From Deltaproteobacteria bacterium (lineage in GTDB: Bacteria > Desulfobacterota > Syntrophia > Syntrophales > UBA8958), in NCBI GenBank assembly GCA_029553375.1, contig JAKPCH010000059.1, positions 34,191 through 98,190 of the forward strand: 64,000 nucleotides of DNA. Direction: 5' to 3'. The first letter of the stretch is position 1; every line of letters begins with the position of its first letter. Below the pieces are notes generated by a model. It saw nothing but the letters and a program-made list of their open reading frames with translations, had not been told where the DNA came from and did not search any database. Made by a program: the position numbers and the translations under genes. Below are positions 17,019 to 30,000 of the stretch, piece by piece.

Positions 17019-17582
17019 TCATTCCAATAGGATCAAGCCCGTCCAGACGACGGTGTCGCCCATGGGGAAGGGGACACGCAGTCCCACCCTCTCCACCGTC
17101 GCCGCCACGTCTATCCCCACGGCCTCCATGGAGGGCCGGGCCCGGAAGGGGTGGCGGCAGGCGACGCTTCCCTCGGCGGCGACACAGGTCTCGCACAGGC
17201 GGCAACAGCCGCCGATGAGGCCGGCGGCGAAACGATAACCCCGGTGAAAGGCCTCCCTCTCCCCCAGGTTGACCAGGTCGTGGAGGCGGTTGGCCGGAAC
17301 GAAGACCTCCTCCCGGGAGGCCCCCGCGGGGGCCCTGACCTGGATGAGGACCCCCTCGCGGTACCTCCTCAGGGCCCGCCGGAATTCGGGGACGGTCATC
17401 ACGAAGGGGGGGCATGTCAGGTTCCGGCGGAAGGAGTCGCAGATGGGTATCTGGCACTTGAGGCGGACCCGCTCGTCGCAGACGACGTCCGCCGCGGCCA
17501 TGGGCAGGGCCGCCGAGGCCCCCGCCGCGAGGAGGACCTCCGCGACGGCCGCCGCCCCCCCGCCCGCGCCCGGGGTCTTCAT
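17019..17582 (-). CDS. DUF2284 cysteine-rich putative metal-binding protein (second copy)
   Basis: This 187-residue protein has the same framework as the gene at 9475: RLKCQIPICDSFRRNLTCPPF, then CCRLCETCVAAEGSVACRHPF and RPSMEAVGIDVA. The cysteine groups could bind an iron-sulfur cluster or other metal. Here it is 3 nt downstream of the cobalamin adenosyltransferase gene and in the acyl-CoA mutase operon, so a role connected with corrinoid or redox maintenance can be imagined but not shown. The N-terminal 30 residues are Ala/Gly-rich, and the start is not certain. Confidence 0.75.
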   Translation of the reverse strand: MKTPGAGGGAAAVAEVLLAAGASAALPMAAADVVCDERVRLKCQIPICDSFRRNLTCPPFVMTVPEFRRALRRYREGVLIQVRAPAGASREEVFVPANRLHDLVNLGEREAFHRGYRFAAGLIGGCCRLCETCVAAEGSVACRHPFRARPSMEAVGIDVAATVERVGLRVPFPMGDTVVWTGLILLE

Positions 17583-17585
17583 CCC

Positions 17586-18143
17586 TCAGTACTCCATCCC
17601 CGCCCGCTCCTTGAGCCCCTGGGCGTAGTGGTGCTTGACCTCCCCGACCTCGCTCACCGTGTCGGCCAGCTCGATGATCTCCCTCGGGGCGTAGCGGCCC
17701 GTGATGATCACGTCAAGGGCGGCGGGCTTGTTCCTCAGCTCCCCCAGGACGTCCTCGAGGGGCACGAGCTTGAAATCCAGCGCCACGTTGAGCTCGTCGA
17801 GGATGATCATGTCGTAGGCCCCCGAGGCCATGGCCTCCTTCGCCAGCTTCCAACCCTCCCGGGCCAGTTCCACGTCCACGGGGGCGGGGTTGTCCCGCAT
17901 GACGAAGCTGTCCAGGCCGCTCTGGCGGATGACGAGGTCCGGGAGGAACTTCTCCGCCGCCAGGACCTCGCCGTACTTCTTCCCCTTCATGAACTGGATC
18001 ATGAGGACCTTCCTGCCGTGGCCGATGGCGCGCAGGGCCTGACCCATGGCGGCCGTCGTCTTGCCCTTGCCGTTCCCCGTCAGGACGTAGATCACCCCCC
18101 GGTTGTGCCTCCTTGTGGCCTCCTCGATGAGCCTGTCCGTCAT
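17586..18143 (-). CDS. cobO: Cob(I)yrinic acid a,c-diamide adenosyltransferase (CobA/CobO type)
   Basis: The ATG at 18143 is chosen because GGGGGGAGG lies 7 nt before it and would fall inside the longer track version; the protein is 185 residues. It has the P-loop GNGKGKTTAAMG, followed by MIQFMKG and IILDELNVALD, as in CobA/BtuR/CobO enzymes. It transfers the 5'-deoxyadenosyl group of ATP to cob(I)alamin, giving adenosylcobalamin, the cofactor of the mutase encoded upstream. It lies after meaB with a hairpin between them. Confidence 0.88.
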   Translation of the reverse strand: MTDRLIEEATRRHNRGVIYVLTGNGKGKTTAAMGQALRAIGHGRKVLMIQFMKGKKYGEVLAAEKFLPDLVIRQSGLDSFVMRDNPAPVDVELAREGWKLAKEAMASGAYDMIILDELNVALDFKLVPLEDVLGELRNKPAALDVIITGRYAPREIIELADTVSEVGEVKHHYAQGLKERAGMEY

Positions 18144-18162
18144 AGAACCTCCCCCCATGGAA

Positions 18163-18197
18163 AAGGCCCGGGACCGCCTTCGCCCGCCCCGGGCCTT
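18163..18197 (-). terminator. Hairpin between meaB and cobO
   Basis: AAGGCCCGGG (18163-18172) and CCCGGGCCTT (18188-18197) form a perfect 10-bp inverted repeat with a 15-nt loop. On the minus strand it follows meaB by about 30 nt and precedes cobO. The AT-rich tract after it is short, so it may be a partial terminator or an mRNA-processing/stability hairpin within the operon rather than a full stop. Confidence 0.45.
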
Positions 18198-18227
18198 CCG
18201 TCTTTCAAACCCCGAGTCCGCCGGGAC

Positions 18228-19229
18228 TCAGACGCCCTCCTTCAGGAAGCGCCGCGCCACTTCCTCGGCGAGGGTGTAGGGATCCGTCTTCTTGTCCATC
18301 AGTTTCTGGATCATCCCCTCGATCTCCCCCTCCGCCACGAGGTGGTTGAGGATGGGCTCGAGGACGCAGGACCTGATGGCCTCGTGGAGCTCCACGGCGG
18401 CCTTGCGCCGGATCCGCGAACCCAGCAGGTCCTTGGCGACGAGGTGCTCGTGGTGCTTGGCGATGGTGTCCGTCAACTCCTCCATGCTCTTCCCGAACGA
18501 ATCGGGCTCGAAGGCGTTCTCCACCCGCACGATGGGCGGCCGCCAGCCCGAGGCGAACGTCTCGGGGGGGGCCATGTCCAGCATGGCCATGATCTCCCGG
18601 CGGAGCTTGGACGACCCCTCCCGGTCGGCCTTGTTGATGACGAAGACGTCGGCGATCTCCATGATCCCCGCCTTGATGGCCTGGATCTCGTCGCCCATGC
18701 CGGGGATCAGGACGACCAGGACCGTGTGGGAGTGGTTGATGATGTCCACCTCCTGCTGCCCCGTGCCGACGGTCTCCACAAGGATGACGTCCATGCCCAT
18801 GACGTCCATGACGTGGATGGCGTCACCCACGGCCTTCGCCAGGCCGCCGAGGGCGCCCCGGGTCGCCAGGCTGCGGACGAAGACCCCGGAGTCTTCCGCG
18901 TGGCGCTGCATGCGGATCCGGTCGCCGAGGATGGCACCGCCCGTGAAGGGGCTCGTGGGGTCCACGGCCAGGACGCCCACGGTCTTGCCCCGCTTGCGGA
19001 ACTGCTCCACCAGACCGTCGACGAGGGTGCTCTTCCCCGCCCCCGGCGACCCCGTGATCCCCACGACCTGGGCCTTGCCCGTCAGGGGAAAGAGGTGCTT
19101 GATGGTGGAACGGGCCTCCTTGACGCCGTCCTCCAGGTTCCTGATGAGGCGGGAAGCCGTCCTCACGTCCCCAGCCTTGATCTTTTTTACCTTTTCCATG
19201 TCCTCGCTCTCATTCTCTGGGTTTGACAT
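18228..19229 (-). CDS. meaB: MeaB/ArgK-type G-protein chaperone of B12-dependent acyl-CoA mutase
   Basis: This 333-residue G3E-family GTPase has the Walker A motif GSPGAGKSTL, VDPTSPFTGGAILGDRIRM, the Walker B/switch region ILVETVGTGQQEVD and the guanine specificity motif NKAD. MeaB-type proteins gate cofactor loading and protect adenosylcobalamin mutases from inactivation. The start overlaps the end of the mutase small subunit gene by 20 nt; a second ATG at codon 11 (MEKVKK) is an alternative. Direct coupling to both mutase subunits makes the partner clear. Confidence 0.92.
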   Translation of the reverse strand: MSNPENESEDMEKVKKIKAGDVRTASRLIRNLEDGVKEARSTIKHLFPLTGKAQVVGITGSPGAGKSTLVDGLVEQFRKRGKTVGVLAVDPTSPFTGGAILGDRIRMQRHAEDSGVFVRSLATRGALGGLAKAVGDAIHVMDVMGMDVILVETVGTGQQEVDIINHSHTVLVVLIPGMGDEIQAIKAGIMEIADVFVINKADREGSSKLRREIMAMLDMAPPETFASGWRPPIVRVENAFEPDSFGKSMEELTDTIAKHHEHLVAKDLLGSRIRRKAAVELHEAIRSCVLEPILNHLVAEGEIEGMIQKLMDKKTDPYTLAEEVARRFLKEGV

Positions 19230-19614
19230 TATTGTTTATCCACTCGACGATGCTGTCCAGGGTCGCCCCGGGCGTGAAGATGGCCTTGATGCCGTTGTCG
19301 TAGAGGTACTGGAAGTCCTGGTCGGGGATGATGCCGCCCCCGATGACCATGATGTCGTCGGCGCCGCGCTCCACGAGCTGCTTCTTCACCGCCGGGAAGA
19401 GGTAGCGGTGGGCGCCCGAGAGACAGCTCAAACCCACGAGGTCCACGTCTTCCTGAATGGCGGCGGCGGCGATCTGCTCCGGCGTCTGGTGACAACCCGT
19501 GTAGATCACCTCGAACCCCGCGTCCCTGAAACAGCGGGCCAGAACCCTCGCACCCCGGTCATGACCGTCCAGACCCGGTTTCGCGACCATCACGCGCAGT
19601 TTTCTCTCTGCCAT
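19210..19614 (-). CDS. Acyl-CoA mutase small subunit, B12-binding
   Basis: The ATG at 19614 (MAERKLRVMVAKPG) has GAGGG upstream and is preferred over the upstream start in the track. The 134-residue protein is a stand-alone cobalamin-binding domain with the DGHDRG (DxHxxG) motif that supplies the lower axial His, then GLSCLSGAH and IGGGIIP, as in the C-terminal domain of methylmalonyl-CoA mutase and in IcmB. It pairs with the large subunit encoded immediately upstream. The substrate is set by the large subunit. Confidence 0.92.
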   Translation of the reverse strand: MAERKLRVMVAKPGLDGHDRGARVLARCFRDAGFEVIYTGCHQTPEQIAAAAIQEDVDLVGLSCLSGAHRYLFPAVKKQLVERGADDIMVIGGGIIPDQDFQYLYDNGIKAIFTPGATLDSIVEWINNNVKPRE

Positions 19615-19646
19615 AAGCGTCGTTCCCTCCTCATGCACTCGTAATA

Positions 19647-21335
19647 TCAATAGAGACCCGGATCACGGTATTCACCGTAGACTTCCCTGTAGACGTCGCA
19701 GATCTCCTGGACGCTGGCCAGGTTCTTGACCGCCTCGATGCAGTAGGGCATGACGTTCTCGCCCTTCTTGCAGGCGTTCTTGAGGTCTTCGAGGCATCTC
19801 TTGACGGCCTTGTTGTCCCGCTTGCGGCGGACGGCGTTGAGGCGCTCGATCTGCTCGATCTCCACCCGGTCGTCGATCTCCACGAGGGGAATGGGCTCCT
19901 GGACCTCGCTGACGTACTTGTTGACGCCGATCATGATCTTCTCGCCCGCGTCGATCTGGCGCTGGAACTTGTAGGCGGCGTCGGCGATCTCCAGCTGGGG
20001 GAAGCCCTTCTCGATGGCCGCGATCATGCCGCCCATCTCGTCGATCTTGTGGATGTACTCCCAGGCCTTCTCCTCCATCTCGTTCGTGAGGGCCTCGACG
20101 AAGTAGGAGCCCGCCAGGGGGTCGATGGTGTTGGCCACGCCCGTCTCCTCGGCGATGATCTGCTGGGTCCTGAGGGCGATCTGGACGGCGTGGTCCGAGG
20201 GGAGGCAGAGGACCTCGTCGAGGGAGTTGGTGTGGAGGGACTGGGTACCGCCCAGGACGGCCGCCAGGGCCTCCGTGGCCGTGCGGATGACGTTGTTGTA
20301 AGGCTGCTGGGCCGTGAGGGAGCAGCCCGCCGTCTGGGTGTGGAAGCGCATCCACCAGGAGCGCGGATCCTTCGCCTTGTAGCGGTCCCTCATGGCCTTG
20401 GCCCAGATCCTCCGGGCGGCCCTCATCTTGGCGATCTCCTCGAAGAAGTCGATGTGGGAGTTGAAGAAGAAGGAGAGGCGGGGGGCGAAGGAATCGACGT
20501 CGAGGCCCTTGCGGCGGATGACGTCCTCCACGTACTCCATGCCGTCCCTGAGGGTGAAGGCCAGCTCCTGCACCGCCGTGGAGCCCGCCTCCCGGATGTG
20601 GTAGCCGCTGATGGAGATGGTGTTCCACTTGGGGACGTACTTCGTGCCGAACTCGACGGTGTCGCTGATGAGCTTGACCGACGGCTCGGGGGGGCACATG
20701 AGGGTCTTCTGGGCGATGAACTCCTTGAGCATGTCGTTCTGGATGGTCCCGCCGATCTTCGTCAGGGGGATGCCCTTCAGATCCGCCGCGGCGCAGTACA
20801 TGGCCCACAGGGCCGTCGCCGGCGGGTTGATCGTCATGGAGGTGGTGACCCTGTCCAGGGGGATGCCGTCGACGAGGGTGAGGAAGTCCTCCAGGGTGTC
20901 GATGGCGACGCCGCACTTCCCGCACTCGCCCCTGGCCTTGGGGGAATCGGTGTCGTAACCCATGAGGGTGGGGAAGTCGAAGGCCGTGCTCAGGCCCGTC
21001 TGCCCCTCCTTGAGGAGGAGGTGCCAGCGGGCGTTCGTCGTCTTGGCGTCCCCCATGCCGGAGAACATGCGGAAGGTCCAGTACTTCCCCCGGTAGCCCG
21101 TCACCTGGTTGCCCCTGAGGAAGGGGAACTGGCCCGGATAGCCGATGTCCCGCTCGAAGTCCATGTCCTTGATGTCCTCGGGACCGTAGAGGCGCTTGAT
21201 CTTGAGGTCCGAGACGGTGGACCACAGATGGTCCGGCTTCTGGTCCGGGTTCTTGGCGATGACCCGGCGCACCTCATCCTCCCACTTCTGCCTCAGTACG
21301 CTGGATTTCTCCAGCACTTCCGCTGCAAAGTACAT
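19647..21335 (-). CDS. Acyl-CoA mutase large subunit, isobutyryl-CoA mutase-type active site
   Basis: This 562-residue protein is the TIM-barrel catalytic subunit of an adenosylcobalamin-dependent acyl-CoA mutase, usually annotated methylmalonyl-CoA mutase. Conserved elements include [32 protein letters not shown] and SLHTNSLDE. The two residues that set substrate choice differ from methylmalonyl-CoA mutase. The position of Tyr89 is Phe91 (TFRMFSG), and the position of Arg207, which binds the carboxylate, is Gln209 (EFIAQKT). Isobutyryl-CoA mutase has Phe and Gln there. The nearby residue is Ala118 rather than the Asp reported in 2-hydroxyisobutyryl-CoA mutase. I infer an uncharged branched/linear acyl-CoA substrate, most simply isobutyryl-CoA/butyryl-CoA. 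AAGGAGG precedes the ATG. Confidence 0.85.
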
Positions 21336-21699: not shown

Positions 21700-23148
21700 T
21701 CAATCTTTCAAACCCATGATCTTTTTCGCCATCTTCTTCTTGGCCTCGAAGTCCGTCAGGACGGTGAACATGAACCGCTGGGTCTGGGGGGCCCCGGCGC
21801 CGTGCCACGTCCCCGGGCCGTGGAGGCCGGCGGACCAGTGCTGGAGGAACTTGGCGACCTTGAGGCGTTTCTCCGCCGGGGCGACGGCGCCGAAGGCCTT
21901 CTTCAGGGCCGGGCCCACCTCGGGGTCCTCGAGGTCCTTGATCCGCGGCATGGTGACGACGAGGCCGCCGCCGATGTCGCCGGCGTTCTTGATGATCTCC
22001 CAGAAGCCGTGGGCGATGTTGAGCTTCGCGGCGTTGCCGAAGAGGTCGTCGGGGAGATAGACGCCCGAGCCCTTGGGCTCCTCCCTCCCCCTCATGGCGG
22101 CGGCGATGGCGCAGGCGTGGGAGGTCTCGCTGTAGCGCAACATGTCGATGATCTTCTCCTGGATGTGGGGCACCTTGTCCACGCCGATGTACTCGGCGGC
22201 CAGGAGGGTCCCGCCGATGATGAGGTCGGCGAAACCGACCTTGCAGGCCCCGCCGCAGTTCATCCGGTGGGCCTTGGCGAAGCGGGTGACCATCCTCCCG
22301 CAGTACTTCGTCTCCCCGCAGAGGAAGACCCTCTCCCAGGGGATGAAGACGTTGTCGAAGTACATCGTCGACGTCTCCCGCTGGCCGTAGAGGGGATTGC
22401 CGAGTTCGTACTCGTCGTCGCACATCTCCCTCTCCGCCGAGTAGGCGTTGTACTGGCAGATGTACGAAAGGCCGGGGGCGCTGTTCTGGACGGCGAAGGC
22501 GAGGGCGAATTTCTCCTCCCCCTCCCGCAGGGCGCCGCCGGGGAGGACGAGGGTCTCGTGGGAACCGATGGCGCCGCTCTGGCTGACCTTGATCCCCCGG
22601 ACCACGATCCCGTCGTCGCGCTTTTCGACGAGATGGACGAAGGTGTCGATCTCGTCCTGCTGGGAGGGCCGTTTCTTCCGGTCCCCCTTCGCGTCCGTGA
22701 TGGCCCCCGACACGGCCAGGTCGTTGGCCTGGGCGTAGGCGAGCCACTTGTTGAACCGCTCGTTGTAGTTCGTCCCCAAATCGCGGTCCATCTCCCAGGT
22801 CGTCGAGGCGAGGCTGTTGAGGGCGTCGCAGCCCACGCAGCGGTAGTTGCACGTCCCCACGGTCTGGCTGGTGAGGAGGGCCATCTCCTGGCGCATGTCG
22901 AGGTCGTGGATGCTGCGGGCCACGTTGAGGTTGCGGTTGATGGGTTCCCCCGTGAGGTGGGAGGAGGCCACCATGACCTCCTTGTGGGCCGGGTCCTCTG
23001 CCAGACCGTAGATGGCCGCGTTGGCCAGGACCATGGAGCGGGTCACGGGGTTGTCCAGGAGGTTGTCCACCCACTTGCCCCCGATGTAGACCCGCGGTTT
23101 CATCTTCCTGATGGTGTCCAGGTATTCCTTTTCCGTCTTCAGTGCCAT
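21700..23148 (-). CDS. AbfD/HpaB-family protein (4-hydroxybutyryl-CoA dehydratase-like)
   Basis: The ATG at 23148 follows AAAAAGGAGG and gives 482 residues, close to AbfD (about 490). The family fold is shared by FAD-dependent 4-hydroxyphenylacetate 3-hydroxylases and the [4Fe-4S]/FAD 4-hydroxybutyryl-CoA dehydratase. Cluster ligands of the dehydratase are recognisable: Cys100 and Cys104 (GTCNYRCVGC) and His294 with a downstream Cys (AHRMNCGGACK). However, the dehydratase's Gln101 position is Tyr102 and its Tyr296 position is Cys298. One extra residue also separates the His and Cys ligands. It is therefore an iron-sulfur flavoenzyme-like paralogue, probably an acyl-CoA dehydratase, with unproved substrate. 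It is downstream of the selenoprotein gene. Confidence 0.72.
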   Translation of the reverse strand: MALKTEKEYLDTIRKMKPRVYIGGKWVDNLLDNPVTRSMVLANAAIYGLAEDPAHKEVMVASSHLTGEPINRNLNVARSIHDLDMRQEMALLTSQTVGTCNYRCVGCDALNSLASTTWEMDRDLGTNYNERFNKWLAYAQANDLAVSGAITDAKGDRKKRPSQQDEIDTFVHLVEKRDDGIVVRGIKVSQSGAIGSHETLVLPGGALREGEEKFALAFAVQNSAPGLSYICQYNAYSAEREMCDDEYELGNPLYGQRETSTMYFDNVFIPWERVFLCGETKYCGRMVTRFAKAHRMNCGGACKVGFADLIIGGTLLAAEYIGVDKVPHIQEKIIDMLRYSETSHACAIAAAMRGREEPKGSGVYLPDDLFGNAAKLNIAHGFWEIIKNAGDIGGGLVVTMPRIKDLEDPEVGPALKKAFGAVAPAEKRLKVAKFLQHWSAGLHGPGTWHGAGAPQTQRFMFTVLTDFEAKKKMAKKIMGLKD

Positions 23149-23210: not shown

Positions 23211-23549
23211 TCACGTCTCCGCCGCCGCCTCGATGACGCAGCACGCCTCGCCCTTCCCGCCGGGGAAGGCCACGATGTTGACCAGGGCCTTGTCCATGAC
23301 GGCGGCCAGCTCCTCCCGCGACCGCCGTCCCCGGATGGTCAAGGTCAGGCGCCTCCCCGCCCGGTCGGCCCCGGCGAGGATATCCTCGGCGGCATACCCC
23401 GGGAGGGTGTTCTTGGCGAGGCACGCATAGGCGAAACTGGCGAACGTACCGGCCAAACCCTCGTATAGGCCCCAGAGTTGGCCGTTTACGACCAGGGCGA
23501 TGACCTCCGTGTCTCCCTCGCCCAGGGGCGAGATGGGCGTCTTTTCCAT
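23211..23549 (-). CDS. Small hypothetical protein between the FAD reductase and AbfD-like genes
   Basis: This 112-residue protein has no recognised domain. It contains a hydrophobic strand (EVIALVVNGQLWGLYEGL), an alanine-rich segment with two cysteines spread over the chain, and KGEACCVIEAA at the C-terminus. It starts 4 nt after the reductase stop and ends 62 nt before the AbfD-like start, so it is almost certainly in the same transcript. Confidence 0.55.
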   Translation of the reverse strand: MEKTPISPLGEGDTEVIALVVNGQLWGLYEGLAGTFASFAYACLAKNTLPGYAAEDILAGADRAGRRLTLTIRGRRSREELAAVMDKALVNIVAFPGGKGEACCVIEAAAET

Positions 23550-23553
23550 GGCC

Positions 23554-24885
23554 TCACAGGCTCCTTGCCAATTCCTGGGCCGCCACGTGGATGGCGTCCC
23601 AGGCCCCCCCGAAGGGCGGGGCGTAGGGCAGGTCGAGATAACCCACCTCGTCCACCGTCATGCCGTTCCAGAGGGCCGCGGAGAGGGCGAAGATCCTCTG
23701 GACGGCCCCCTTGGCGCCCAGACACTGGGCCCCGATGAGGCGGCCCGTGGTCTTGTCGGCCGTGAGCTTCACGAGGAGCCTCTCGCCCCTCGCTATGGGC
23801 CGGCCCACGGGGAGGCCCTGGATGAAGGCGCTTGCGGGGGCGAAGCCGTACTTGACCGCCTCGTTCTCGTTGAGGCCCGCGGCCGCCACCTCGAGGTCGA
23901 AGACCTTGAAGGACTGGGCCCCGACGACGCCGGGAAACTCCGCCGGCCGTCCCCCGATGTTCTGACCCGCCACCCGCCCCTGCTTGTTGGCGATGTCCCC
24001 CAGGGGTATGTAGACCCAGCGGCGGGCGACCTTGTGGAAGACCTCGCAGCAGTCCCCCACGGCATAGATCCCCGGGACGGAGGTCTGCTGGCGGAAATCC
24101 ACCTTGATGGCACCGCTTTCCCCCATCTCGACGCCGGCGGCCGCGGCGAGTTCCGTGTTACTCCTCACACCCACGGCCATGAGGACGAGATCGGCCCCCA
24201 GGTCGCCGGAGTTGGTTTTCACCACGAGGCCCTCCCCGTTCCTCTCGATGGAGAGGGGGGTGGTACCACCCTGAAAAAGGACACCGTTCTTTTCCAACTC
24301 TTCCAGGATGGGGGCGCAGAACTCCTCGTCCCAGCGGGGCACGGGCCGGTGCCGCCTAACGATGACCGTCGTCTCGATGCCCAGGTTGCGCAGGGCCTCG
24401 GACATCTCCATGGCGATGAAACCGCCGCCGACGATGACGGCCCGGCGGCAGGCCCTGCCGTTCAGATAGTCCTTGATGCGCAGGGCGTCGGAAAGATCCC
24501 GCAGGACAAAGACGCCGTCCAGGTCCACCCCGGGGATGTCGAGGCGGGTCGCCCGGGCCCCCGTGGCGATGGTCAGGCTATCGTAGGGGAGGCGGGAGCC
24601 GTCGGCGAGGCGGACCTCACCCCTGGCCGCGTCGATCTCCTCCACCCGCGTCTTCGTGAGGACCTTGATCCCCGTCTTCCCGAACGCCTCGGGAGTCCGG
24701 ATCACCAGCTTGTTGTAGTCTTTTATTACATCGCCGATGTAATAGGGCATCGGTCAAGCGGCATAGGAGACGAACTCCCCCGCCTCGATCATCGTGACCT
24801 CCAGGGACTTGTCCCGCCGCCTCGCCTCCGCCGCCGTGGACGGTCCGGCGGTGCCGCCGCCGACGACAATCAATTTTCGACCCAT
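23554..24885 (-). CDS. Selenocysteine-containing FAD/NAD(P) disulfide reductase (CoA-disulfide reductase/NADH oxidase-like)
   Basis: The track shows only codons 46 onward (23554-24750). Reading upstream in the same frame to ATG 24885, which has AAGGAGG 5 nt before it, gives the missing FAD-binding N-terminus (MGRKLIVVGGGTAGPSTAAE). A single in-frame UGA interrupts it at codon 44 (24754-24756). The context is SYAA-UGA-PMPYYIGD, exactly where CoA-disulfide reductase and NADH oxidase have the redox cysteine (SYAxCGxPYYIG; Cys42/43). A SECIS-like hairpin follows. With Sec at 44 the protein is 443 residues, normal for the family. Other motifs: the NAD(P)-binding VIVGGGFIAMEMSEAL and the FAD-binding GIYAVGDC. 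It should reduce CoA-disulfide, persulfide or a similar thiol substrate. Confidence 0.88.
24724..24744 (-). promoter_or_regulatory. Putative bacterial SECIS element
   Basis: In mRNA sense, UGA is followed by 9 nt, then a perfect 9-bp stem UAUUACAUC / GAUGUAAUA closing a GGC loop. The loop begins with G and lies 18 nt after the UGA. Both match the general rules for bacterial SECIS elements (apical loop about 16-37 nt from UGA, G at the start of the loop). It also encodes YYIGDVI, so it is inside the coding sequence. Confidence 0.7.
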
Positions 24886-24970: not shown

Positions 24971-25510
24971 TCAACCCTTCAGGTTCTCCACGTTCTTCCC
25001 GAAGGGCCGCGACGCCGCCTCATCCCGGTCGGTATAGATCAGCTCCGCCGCCAGGCCCGCCGCCTCGGTGATCAGCTCCCGGCAGAAGAGGGCGTGATCC
25101 CGGCAGAGCCAGCTGTGTTGCCACTGGGCGGTTAAGTCCCGGCAGAGGGTCTTGCCGTGCTTCTCGTAGAAATGGTTGGGGATGACGTTGAACAACCGGT
25201 AGAGACCCGGTCTCCCGTAGAGCTGTTCCGTGGCTTTCTTGACCAGCTCCTTGCCTTCCCCCTCGGGGAGGGCGCTCCGGCCGTGGACGGCCCCCACGGC
25301 CAAAACGGCCCCCGCGATGGCCCCGCAGGTGTCGCCGAAGAGGCCGATGCCCCCGCCGAAACCCGTGGCGACCTTCTTCACCTCCGGGGGCAGCCCCGTT
25401 TCCGCGAGGCTCAAGACCGCCTCGGTCACACACTCCGCACAGTTGTAACCCAGGGAGAAATTCTTCCGGGCCCGCTGGCGGATCGCCTCGATCTTCTCTT
25501 CCCGCGTCAT
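24971..25510 (-). CDS. C_GCAxxG_C_C family redox-type protein
   Basis: The ATG at 25510 is preferred, with AGGAGG 8 nt upstream; length is 179 residues. The family pattern is clear: YNCAECVTEAVL, then GFGGGIGLFGDTCGAIAGAVLAVG, with further cysteines at TLCRDL, WLCRD and FCREL. These small proteins are widespread in anaerobes and are often next to oxidoreductases; no enzyme activity is established. The gene precedes the selenoprotein gene by 85 nt on the same strand and may open this operon. A second member is encoded at 62477. Confidence 0.8.
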   Translation of the reverse strand: MTREEKIEAIRQRARKNFSLGYNCAECVTEAVLSLAETGLPPEVKKVATGFGGGIGLFGDTCGAIAGAVLAVGAVHGRSALPEGEGKELVKKATEQLYGRPGLYRLFNVIPNHFYEKHGKTLCRDLTAQWQHSWLCRDHALFCRELITEAAGLAAELIYTDRDEAASRPFGKNVENLKG

Positions 25511-25641
25511 GCCGTGCACCTCCTTGTTTTTTCAGTAATACCCCGCCTTTTACCCCGACAGCGGGGATGGTGACACCGCCGTCAAACAAATGCAACGCCT
25601 AAAGTATGCTTATAAATTACCGAGGCAAAATAAGATGCCAT

Positions 25642-26892
25642 CTACAAAGCCATGAGGTACGAACGGAGGTTGGCCTTACGGTGTTTCAGGCCCACCTTCC
25701 TACGGATGTTGTTCCGGTGGACGTCGACAGTCCGGGGGGAAATGCCGAGGAGTTCCGCCATTTCCTTCGTCGCGCGGCCCTCCTTGATGAAGGTGACGAT
25801 CTTCAGCTCCATGGGTGTGAGGTCGGGGTGGCGGGAGTAGAGGGTCCTGAGGAAGGGAGAGGTGATCTCGTTGAGGTGCCGCTCCAGGATGGCGAGCTGG
25901 TTGGCCTGGTGGGCGTTGAGGGGCGAGGCCTTGAGGTTCTCCACGTAGGGGAGGATTAGCTCCCGGATGTTGTGGACGACCTTCTCCTCCAGCTCCGCCC
26001 GGTCCTCGTCCCGGCGCCTGAGGAGGACCTTGAGGGCCGTGTTGGCGTCTTCGAGGTTCCGGGACTTCTCCTCCAGCTCCCGCTCCCGCCTCCTGAGGGC
26101 CTCCTCCATCTTCTTCCGCTCCGTGATGTTCCGGGCGATGCCGTGAATGGCCGTCGGCTGTCCCTCCGCCGCCACGATGCGGGCGTTGACCTCCAGCCAG
26201 ACCGTCTCCCCCTCCCTGGTGAGGGTGCGAAACTCCTGGGTCGCCTCGTCGTCGCCCCGGACGAGGCGTTGCTGGAGGAACTCCCGGGCGAGGGGCAGAT
26301 CCTCGGGATGGACGAGATCGGCGATCGAGAGGCGCCGGAACTCCTCGGCACTGTAGCCGTAGGTCCGGGAGGCGGCGGCGTTGCACGACCGGATCCGGCC
26401 CTCCAGGTCGAGGATGAAGATGACGTCGTTGGCGTTCTCGAAGAGTTCCCGGTACTGACGCTCCGACTGCCTCAGGGCCGCCTCGGCCCGGCGGCGGTCC
26501 GTGATGTCCGTGACGATCTCCACGACCCCCGTGACGGCGCTGCCCCCGTCCCGGACGGGGTAACTGCGCAGGACCCAGTTCTTGCCGTAGGAGGAGAGAT
26601 CGAAGACCTCGTGGGGCCTGCCGGTGCGGAGGGTCTTGGCGGCGGGACAGACCCGGCAGATCCGGTCCCGGCCGTGGAGGGTGCGGTAGCAGTGGGAGCC
26701 GTCGAGGCTCCCGGGGGGTAGGTTGAAGGCCTCGTGCATGGCCTTGTTGGCCCAGATGACCCGCATGTCCCGATCGAGGTAGAGGACCAGCTCCGTCATG
26801 GCGTCGAGGATGACGGCCTTTTCCCGTTCCGAGCGGGAGGTCCGACGGACGGGACCCGATCCTCCCCTCCCCTTTTCCGCCCTTTCCGGCAT
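25642..26892 (-). CDS. PAS-PAS-LuxR transcriptional regulator
   Basis: This 416-residue protein has a first PAS domain at about 20-135 (VILDAMTELVLYLDRDMRVIWANKAM, including CRVCPAAKTL) and a second at about 143-265 (LFENANDVIFILDLEGRI). A coiled coil follows to about 320, then a C-terminal LuxR-type helix-turn-helix (LTPMELKIVTFIKEGRATKEMAELLGIS, TVDVHRNNIRRKVG). There is no kinase or receiver domain, so it probably senses a ligand or redox state directly. Its promoter overlaps that of the divergent MtnA-like gene. By position it could control the surrounding acyl-CoA genes, which is inference. Confidence 0.87.
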   Translation of the reverse strand: MPERAEKGRGGSGPVRRTSRSEREKAVILDAMTELVLYLDRDMRVIWANKAMHEAFNLPPGSLDGSHCYRTLHGRDRICRVCPAAKTLRTGRPHEVFDLSSYGKNWVLRSYPVRDGGSAVTGVVEIVTDITDRRRAEAALRQSERQYRELFENANDVIFILDLEGRIRSCNAAASRTYGYSAEEFRRLSIADLVHPEDLPLAREFLQQRLVRGDDEATQEFRTLTREGETVWLEVNARIVAAEGQPTAIHGIARNITERKKMEEALRRRERELEEKSRNLEDANTALKVLLRRRDEDRAELEEKVVHNIRELILPYVENLKASPLNAHQANQLAILERHLNEITSPFLRTLYSRHPDLTPMELKIVTFIKEGRATKEMAELLGISPRTVDVHRNNIRRKVGLKHRKANLRSYLMAL

Positions 26893-28119: not shown

Positions 28120-28902
28120 TCACTTCACCTTACGGTTGAGGAAGTAGCCGTCGGGGTCGCACACCTCGCGCAGCAGGCGCAGGTCCTCGGCCGTCGGCTC
28201 GGCCATCTCCTTCAGGTCCGGGGAGACGAGGAGGTCGAAGCTCACCAGGTCCTGGATGTCCTTGGCCGTCTTGCCCGGCAGGACCTCGAGGAGGACCATC
28301 CGCTTCGTCTCCTCGTCGAAACCGAAGAGGGCCTGGTTGGTGATGACCCGGTAGGGTCCCTGACCCATGACCCCCGCCTTCTCGCGATAGTCGGGGGAGC
28401 CGTCGCCGTAGCCGATGCTCGTCAAGAACTCCACCTTCTCCACGAAACGCCGCTTCTCGAGGGCCATGATGATGATGGACCGCTCGCAGTTGGCCGCCAT
28501 GGCCCCGGCGCCGCCGCTCCCGGGGAAGCGGGTCTGGGGGCGGTCGTAGGTCCCCCCCTCGAAGGTGGAACAGACGTTCCCGTACATGTCGATCTGGGCC
28601 CCGCCGATGAAGGCGTAGTCGGAGTAACCCCGCTGGGTCAGTTCGAAGACGGCGCAGAGGCCCTTGAGGTAGCAGGCCTTGCGGCACGCCCTCGTGTCGC
28701 CCACGGAGAGGGGCATCCCCATCTCGAGGATGGGGCTCAGGGGACCCGACTCGAAGATCATGGCCAAGTTGGGGGCATGGGTCAACTGGGCGTGCATGGA
28801 GGCGATGATGGGCAGTCCCGTCCCGACGAAGACGATCTTTTCGTCCTCGAGGACGCGGGAACCCGTGTAGGCAATCATCTCAAAGGGTGTATATTCAGGC
28901 AT
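28120..28902 (-). CDS. CoA-transferase subunit B (GctB-like)
   Basis: This 260-residue protein is the beta subunit of a class I CoA-transferase. The catalytic glutamate is in MIFESGPLSP, matching the ESG context of GctB. Other family segments are GGAQIDMYGNVCST and FPGSGGAGAMAANC. With subunit A it moves CoA between carboxylates. The closest remembered relatives are glutaconate CoA-transferase-like proteins of anaerobic acid and aromatic degraders; the real acid pair is unknown. It is 24 nt downstream of subunit A. Confidence 0.85.
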   Translation of the reverse strand: MPEYTPFEMIAYTGSRVLEDEKIVFVGTGLPIIASMHAQLTHAPNLAMIFESGPLSPILEMGMPLSVGDTRACRKACYLKGLCAVFELTQRGYSDYAFIGGAQIDMYGNVCSTFEGGTYDRPQTRFPGSGGAGAMAANCERSIIIMALEKRRFVEKVEFLTSIGYGDGSPDYREKAGVMGQGPYRVITNQALFGFDEETKRMVLLEVLPGKTAKDIQDLVSFDLLVSPDLKEMAEPTAEDLRLLREVCDPDGYFLNRKVK

Positions 28903-28926
28903 GTGTCTTGACCTCCTTGTGCTTTT

Positions 28927-30000
28927 CTATGAAAGGATGATGGGCTGGCCGCCGTCCATGTCCTTGATCTTCCTCAGGGTCTTGTAGGGGAGACGGCCGA
29001 GGAAATCGTCGAAGGTGTCGCAGCCGAAGATGTACTCGTCGTAGTACCTCTTGAGGTTGTCCTTGTTGCCCGTCCGGCGGAACTCCTCGCAGAGGGAGCG
29101 GAACTTGAGGATGTGTTCCATGTCGAACCAGTAGAAACCGTAGGAGGCGCCGGGATAGGCGCCGAAGGGCTGTTCCACGAGGGCGTCCACGGCGGCGTAG
29201 GGGATCTCCGTGAGGTTCGGGTAGGTGCGGACGTTCTCGTTGGGGATGATCCGCTCCGTCGTGACGATGCTGTACGTGGCGGCCATGGTGATCTCGGGGC
29301 AGGTGCAGTGGGCCCCGAAGATGCGGCAGTTGCCGTACATGTCCGCCGCCGTCACGTGGACGATGGCCACGTCGGGGTGACAGGCCGGGACGAGATAGAC
29401 GTTCTTGCCGCTGAACGGGCAAACGACCATTTTTCCCCGGTTCACGAGCTCCATGTCCGAGCCGCCGTGGTCCCGCGTGGGGATGAAGGGGACGCCCATG
29501 GCCGCGGCCTTGAAGCGGGCGGACATGCCGTAGTTGGTGTAATCGTCCAGGCGGATCATCCCCCGGGAGGTGAGGTACCTCAAGAGGGGGGCGATACCGA
29601 TGACCTCGTAGCCCCACCAGGCCAGCTCCACCCTCTTGATGGAGACGTGGTCGGGGTCCAGGATCATGGCCCCCGCCAGGAGCTCCGCGCAGATGGAGTT
29701 GGACTGGAAGGAGAGGGTGAGGTCCTTCGCCCCCTTGCGGATGATCTCATGGACGATGGCCACGGGGACGCGGGTGTTCACGAAACCCCCGATCCCGATA
29801 TTGATACCGTCCTTGACGTACTTGGCGACGGCCTCTTTCAGGGTCGTGCGCTTGTCGTGCATACCCTTGCTCTTGGCCGACATGACCCTGCGGGCCTCTT
29901 CCGGGCTGGGCCCCCACCACTCGAAGGGTTCCTCCGCCAGGGCGGCGTCGTACTTCAGATTGGAAACCTTCTTGATCTTCGATGCCACTTTGTCGTTCAT
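28927..30000 (-). CDS. CoA-transferase subunit A (GctA-like)
   Basis: This 357-residue protein is the alpha subunit of the same class I CoA-transferase. The family start INIGIGGFVNTRVPVAIVHEI is preceded by an extra 45 or so residues compared with short homologues. Later segments include GVPFIPTRDHGGSDM, VACHPDVAIVHVTAADMYGNCRIFGAHC and a C-terminal tail (about 290-357) typical of the long GctA version. GGAGGT lies 11 nt before the ATG. Its location beside the mutase/AbfD-like genes suggests it activates the organic acid that enters that pathway. Confidence 0.85.
   Translation of the reverse strand: MNDKVASKIKKVSNLKYDAALAEEPFEWWGPSPEEARRVMSAKSKGMHDKRTTLKEAVAKYVKDGINIGIGGFVNTRVPVAIVHEIIRKGAKDLTLSFQSNSICAELLAGAMILDPDHVSIKRVELAWWGYEVIGIAPLLRYLTSRGMIRLDDYTNYGMSARFKAAAMGVPFIPTRDHGGSDMELVNRGKMVVCPFSGKNVYLVPACHPDVAIVHVTAADMYGNCRIFGAHCTCPEITMAATYSIVTTERIIPNENVRTYPNLTEIPYAAVDALVEQPFGAYPGASYGFYWFDMEHILKFRSLCEEFRRTGNKDNLKRYYDEYIFGCDTFDDFLGRLPYKTLRKIKDMDGGQPIILS

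Follow-up and report, generated by a model that had tools for sequence, protein, structure and literature searches.

The 64,000-nucleotide stretch of DNA analysed here (the window), from a methane-consortium bacterium, carries a gene (23148..21700, minus strand) whose product, judged by its sequence, is a member of a well-defined, separate and uncharacterised subfamily related to 4-hydroxybutyryl-CoA dehydratase (4HBD; AbfD). The protein is probably a FAD/[4Fe-4S] lyase or isomerase of short acyl-CoA, representing a new subfamily of the AbfD superfamily with an altered radical initiation. Enzymes that generate a substrate radical with nothing more than a flavin and an iron-sulfur cluster are very rare, and 4HBD is among them; a natural subfamily in which the cluster is kept and the proposed electron donor is swapped would be a ready-made test of the 4HBD mechanism. 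No account of the subfamily was found in a full-text literature search, whose reach excluded most subscription papers.

Gene prediction and structural relatives

The AbfD-like gene starts with ATG, preceded by AGGAGG as a well-matching ribosome-binding site, and encodes a protein of 482 amino acids with HpaB_N and HpaB domains. The open reading frame that a preliminary description had placed at 21700-23148 is real, and its strand is to be read as minus. The AlphaFold2 model of the protein (pLDDT 92, pTM 0.90) matched the AbfD/HpaB-type acyl-CoA-dehydrogenase-like fold. The best PDB match in Foldseek was AbfD of C. aminobutyricum (1u8v; TM 0.94/0.93, rmsd 2.0), followed by the archaeal 4HBD/vinylacetyl-CoA delta-isomerase of N. 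maritimus (6vjr; TM 0.94). A phmmer search against the PDB also placed 1u8v first (375 bits), with 6vjr at 326 bits and the HpaB monooxygenases far behind. The archaeal enzyme shares the cluster ligands with the variant; however, 6vjr retains Q, Y and E at the positions discussed below and groups with AbfD, whereas the variant does neither.

The Pfam domain names, and a match to the NCBIfam family HpaB-1 (174.8 bits), could suggest an HpaB-type phenol monooxygenase, but the likelihood of this is practically negligible: the NCBIfam cut-offs were missed by far (174.8 vs. 480.2 bits for HpaB-1; 85.7 vs. 885.2 bits), the variant is nearest to 4HBD by both sequence and fold, and the host lineage is anaerobic. 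The 4-hydroxyphenylacetate 3-monooxygenase HpaB (2yyg) shares the overall fold (TM about 0.83-0.87) and the Pfam domains with the variant; it is, however, an oxygenase that lacks the four cluster ligands of the variant and scores much lower against it. The identity as HpaB monooxygenase was dropped on score and ligands.

Active-site residues

The AbfD residues named in the preliminary description were correct; in the 1u8v sequence, C99, Q101, C103, T190, E257, H292, Y296, C299, K300 and E455 were all confirmed. In the alignment, Cys100, Cys104 and His294, reported earlier as kept, correspond to C99, C103 and H292, and Cys302 and Lys303 to C299 and K300, which completes the ligand set C, C, H, C of AbfD. 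The substitutions that had been pointed out, Gln101 to Tyr102 and Tyr296 to Cys298, were both recovered, as was the spacing of 8 instead of 7 residues from the His to the last Cys ligand, with one residue inserted before Cys302. The codons for C100-N-Y102-R-C104 lie at 22837..22851, and those for H294-R-M-N-C298-G-G-A-C302 at 22243..22269 (both minus strand). A further change had been overlooked: E455 has no counterpart in the GPGTWH region (21802..21816, minus strand), from which the YRTE segment of AbfD is missing; the sequence GPGTWHGAG is four residues shorter than GYRTESMHGAG of AbfD. The T190 position is occupied by Ser or Thr in the variant rows, and a conserved Glu (QRE) lies one residue away from the E257 position.

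Among the 45 aligned variant rows, the four cluster-ligand positions and the match to K300 are conserved in all 45, with a His-to-Cys spacing of 8. Tyr102 is likewise present in 45/45 (Gln101 is kept in none), the Glu455 segment is absent in 45/45, and Cys298 is found in 44; the altered site is hence fixed across the rows, and the earlier view that it represents more than drift holds. Cys is also found in 80 of 81 matches to HRxx[CY]GG[ASTG]CK in the collected loci (duplicates counted). Canonical relatives carry HRQ[SN]YGGCK; in the canonical rows, 13 by count with one stray paralogue (L004) among them, the residues C, Q, C, H, Y, C and K are retained, and in most cases E as well. A characterised 4HBD with HRxxCGGAC had been named as the case that would speak against an altered site; 1u8v and 6vjr both keep the Tyr.

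The sole exception to Cys298 is locus L042, where the residue is Tyr (codon TAC). This Tyr, and the GG conserved after position 298, favour C298 as the equivalent of Y296 and an insertion just before C302. The gene cluster of L042 (4800-9600) is decaying, with frameshifts, truncation or erosion in its homologues of the upstream genes described below (NADH-oxidase-like, C_GCAxxG, PAS regulator and small ORF); the exchange C298Y therefore does not speak for a functional Tyr at this position in the subfamily. The loss of two catalytic residues, together with C298Y and the decaying neighbours in L042, could be taken as a sign of a degenerate, inactive AbfD paralogue, yet the decay in L042 is an exception, the variant site is fixed over deep divergence in at least five subgroups, and the cluster ligands are invariant, which makes an inactive protein very improbable.

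Subfamily and phylogeny

Relatives were gathered from 297 genomes of the phylum, 149 genomes of the order, and contigs of named genomes. The altered site is common to the aligned relatives down to approximately 49% identity. A quick maximum-likelihood tree separates the variant rows from all others at a branch with an SH-aLRT of 100 (the only support measure of this tree, which has no bootstrap and an HpaB root on a long branch), and the suspected distinct subfamily was thus recovered as one clade; the characterised AbfD and 6vjr fall together with the Syntrophales proteins of canonical motif, apart from the variant clade. The genome of the window itself also encodes an AbfD paralogue with canonical motifs (L002; CFQRC, HRQSYGGCK and RTESLHGAG).

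In a locus of Smithellaceae (L110, 913-9033; G229), four AbfD homologues occur together with two SDR genes and one gene of the crotonase family; among the motifs of these homologues, HRHSYSGCK represents a third type. In two other loci (L057 and L058), the variant gene lies beside a second AbfD-like gene and genes for aldehyde ferredoxin oxidoreductase-like and HypE/AIR-synthase-like proteins, and in three loci (L062, L066 and L070) an SBP_bac_11-type ABC transporter (molybdate/tungstate type) is encoded near the variant gene.

Proposed mechanism

For 4HBD, E455 reportedly deprotonates Y296, which in turn reduces the FAD, in a proposal attributed to Zhang et al. 2015; E257 and T190 are said to have roles as well. 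A thiol needs no deprotonating base, so that the replacement of Y296 by Cys298 and the loss of E455 would fit together, and the displacement of the E257 counterpart by one residue makes part of the radical relay uncertain. For the lyase or isomerase reading, we propose that the flavin would take one electron, and that the alpha and beta carbons of the acyl-CoA would be activated as an enoxy or ketyl radical, with the His-ligated cluster assisting as a Lewis acid or base. With Cys298 in the place of Tyr296 and Glu455 gone, the electron donor and the leaving-group chemistry would have to differ from those in AbfD. H294, C298 and C302 are located on one continuous predicted helix (280-321) of the AlphaFold2 model, at i, i+4 and i+8; the earlier suggestion that C298 and C302 could both reach the cluster is plausible on this model. 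An internal one-electron transfer in 4HBD has been described (PMC13101534).

The main rival is a 4-hydroxyacyl-CoA dehydratase of altered specificity, i.e. an enzyme in which Cys298 does the job of Tyr296 on a larger or branched substrate (a 4-hydroxy C5-C6 or 3-hydroxyisobutyryl-type CoA ester). This would agree with the retention of all cluster ligands and K300, and probably of E257 and T190; a second specificity would be sensible beside the canonical-motif AbfD in the same genome, and the several AbfD paralogues that accompany crotonase and SDR genes in the Smithellaceae locus indicate that the family has diversified in the order. However, E455 and Y296 are lost together, so that water elimination by the variant is not a given, and no hydroxyacyl dehydrogenase gene was found beside the variant gene. 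The 4HBD variants E455Q, Y296W and E257Q reportedly had no measurable activity, which weakens the case for a dehydratase further, and we regard it as somewhat unlikely.

The preferred reading, a radical lyase or isomerase, and the dehydratase reading both imply an acyl-CoA substrate, which is supported by the neighbouring genes for a CoA ligase, a CoA-transferase and an acyl-CoA mutase. This support applies to an acyl-CoA in general rather than to the hydroxyacyl-CoA suggested earlier.

Genes upstream of the AbfD-like gene

All upstream genes considered here are on the minus strand. The nearest is a small ORF of 112 amino acids (23211..23549), homologues of which immediately precede the AbfD-like gene in the majority of Syntrophales loci; it had no match in Pfam or NCBIfam, and its family carries a conserved G[TS]F motif. 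The next gene (24885..23554) encodes a flavoprotein similar to NADH oxidase and CoA-disulfide reductase (NOX-like), and contains an in-frame TGA (24756..24754) exactly at the position of the redox-active Cys (VSYAA-U-PMPYYIGD). Those intact Syntrophales orthologues that were examined share the TGA, L055 has Cys at this position, and the genome carries tRNA-Sec and SelB, both above cut-off. A search for a SECIS element for this TGA gave no match in Rfam and a fold z-score of only -1.3. The NOX-like gene probably encodes a selenoprotein, and usual gene calling would truncate it at the TGA.

Further upstream, profile matches indicated a putative redox protein of the C_GCAxxG_C_C family (24971..25519), a PAS-domain regulator with LuxR-type C-terminus (25642..26892), and CoA-transferase subunits B (28902..28120) and A (30000..28927), together spanning 28120..30000. 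The set of PAS-LuxR regulator, C_GCAxxG protein, NOX-like protein and small ORF, followed by the AbfD-like gene, recurs in many Syntrophales loci, and a PAS and GerE regulator gene also precedes a distant AbfD-like homologue in L060.

The recurrence of the NOX-like gene next to the AbfD-like gene in many Syntrophales loci, a NOX homologue near the 52% identical AbfD-like protein in L063 and L065, and the C_GCAxxG redox protein within the same cluster raise the possibility of a redox enzyme, whose flavin and cluster would oxidise or reduce an acyl-CoA and exchange electrons with the selenocysteine NADH-oxidase-like protein. We consider this distinctly unlikely, since the AbfD relatives catalyse overall non-redox reactions, the NOX gene was not found in L035, L044, L048, L049, L051 and L052 (labelled as Bacillota), where the AbfD-like gene is intact, and it is 945 nt distant in L063 and L065.

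B12-dependent mutase

The AbfD-like gene is followed in the window by a set of genes on the same strand (21335..17586), predicted to encode the large subunit of a B12-dependent acyl-CoA mutase (19647..21335; isobutyryl-CoA-mutase-like by alignment) and, by profile matches, the B12-binding small subunit (19210..19650), a MeaB GTPase (18228..19229) and a cob(I)alamin adenosyltransferase (17586..18158); a DUF2284 putative metal-binding protein (17019..17582, minus strand, profile match) is encoded thereafter. The mutase is the only PF01642 protein in its genome. In the alignment, it has F91 and Q209 at the positions of Tyr89 and Arg207 of methylmalonyl-CoA mutase, a Phe/Gln pair that we take to be that of isobutyryl-CoA mutase, and methylmalonyl-CoA mutase is disfavoured. 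Its best PDB sequence match is the 2-hydroxyisobutyryl-CoA mutase HcmA (4r3u; 517 bits); this identity is also out, given Phe91 and Ala118 in place of Ile90 and Asp117 of HcmA. The gene content (mutase N and C, adenosyltransferase and MeaB) is that of the isobutyryl-CoA mutase cluster Slip_0757-0760 of Syntrophothermus lipocalidus as described in an excerpt of its published account (PMC5017805), which makes no mention of an AbfD-like gene.

The mutase gene begins 364 nt past the stop codon of the AbfD-like gene, and no promoter or terminator was found between the two; at this distance, and with the mutase gene not adjacent to the AbfD-like gene in several genomes, the link in the window is loose. 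The mutase is present in 23/23 Syntrophales genomes with a close AbfD variant (at least 84%), and also in eight named genomes where the variant is not adjacent (overlapping partly with the 23). Orthologues of the mutase (at least approximately 77% identity) are common anyway, being present in the majority of the 149 genomes of Syntrophales, Smithellaceae included, so that this co-occurrence is consistent with a link without being strong proof.

A firmer link is seen in two distant genomes (L064 and L071), in which the AbfD-like gene shares a tight operon with genes for a GntR regulator, both mutase subunits and a PaaK-like CoA ligase (gaps of 41/114, -4/3 and 8/27 nt in the order large subunit, small subunit, ligase, AbfD-like gene). 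In L056, L063 and L065, too, a PaaK-like ligase gene lies next to the AbfD-like gene. The mutases of L064 and L071 differ in their active site from the mutase of the window by alignment, hence a shared substrate would not be constant. A more specific form of the preferred reading, in which Cys298 and the [4Fe-4S] cluster would start the flavin radical instead of Tyr296 and Glu455, and drive a new acyl-CoA rearrangement or elimination together with the B12 mutase, appears quite doubtful.

In other genomes, the mutase is accompanied by genes for CoA-transferase, acyl-CoA dehydrogenase and C_GCAxxG proteins (L103, where CoA-transferase subunits similar to the pair in the window adjoin the mutase operon), or for acyl-CoA dehydrogenases, thiolase and crotonase (L105). 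The mutase operon (21335..17586) might serve in isobutyrate isomerisation or in the carbon-skeleton step of propionate dismutation in Smithella, and the neighbourhood offers a mutase that may act in carbon-skeleton steps of Syntrophales; the enzymes of propionate dismutation in Smithella are still unidentified (PMC13248872). The C6 route considered for Smithella leads from 2-methyl-3-oxovaleryl-CoA via 4-oxohexanoyl-CoA and 4-hydroxyhexanoyl-CoA to 2-hexenoyl-CoA. The variant as the missing dehydratase of this route would be chemically possible, but was rejected because most Smithellaceae (f2) have the mutase without the variant; an AbfD with canonical motif would fit the route better.
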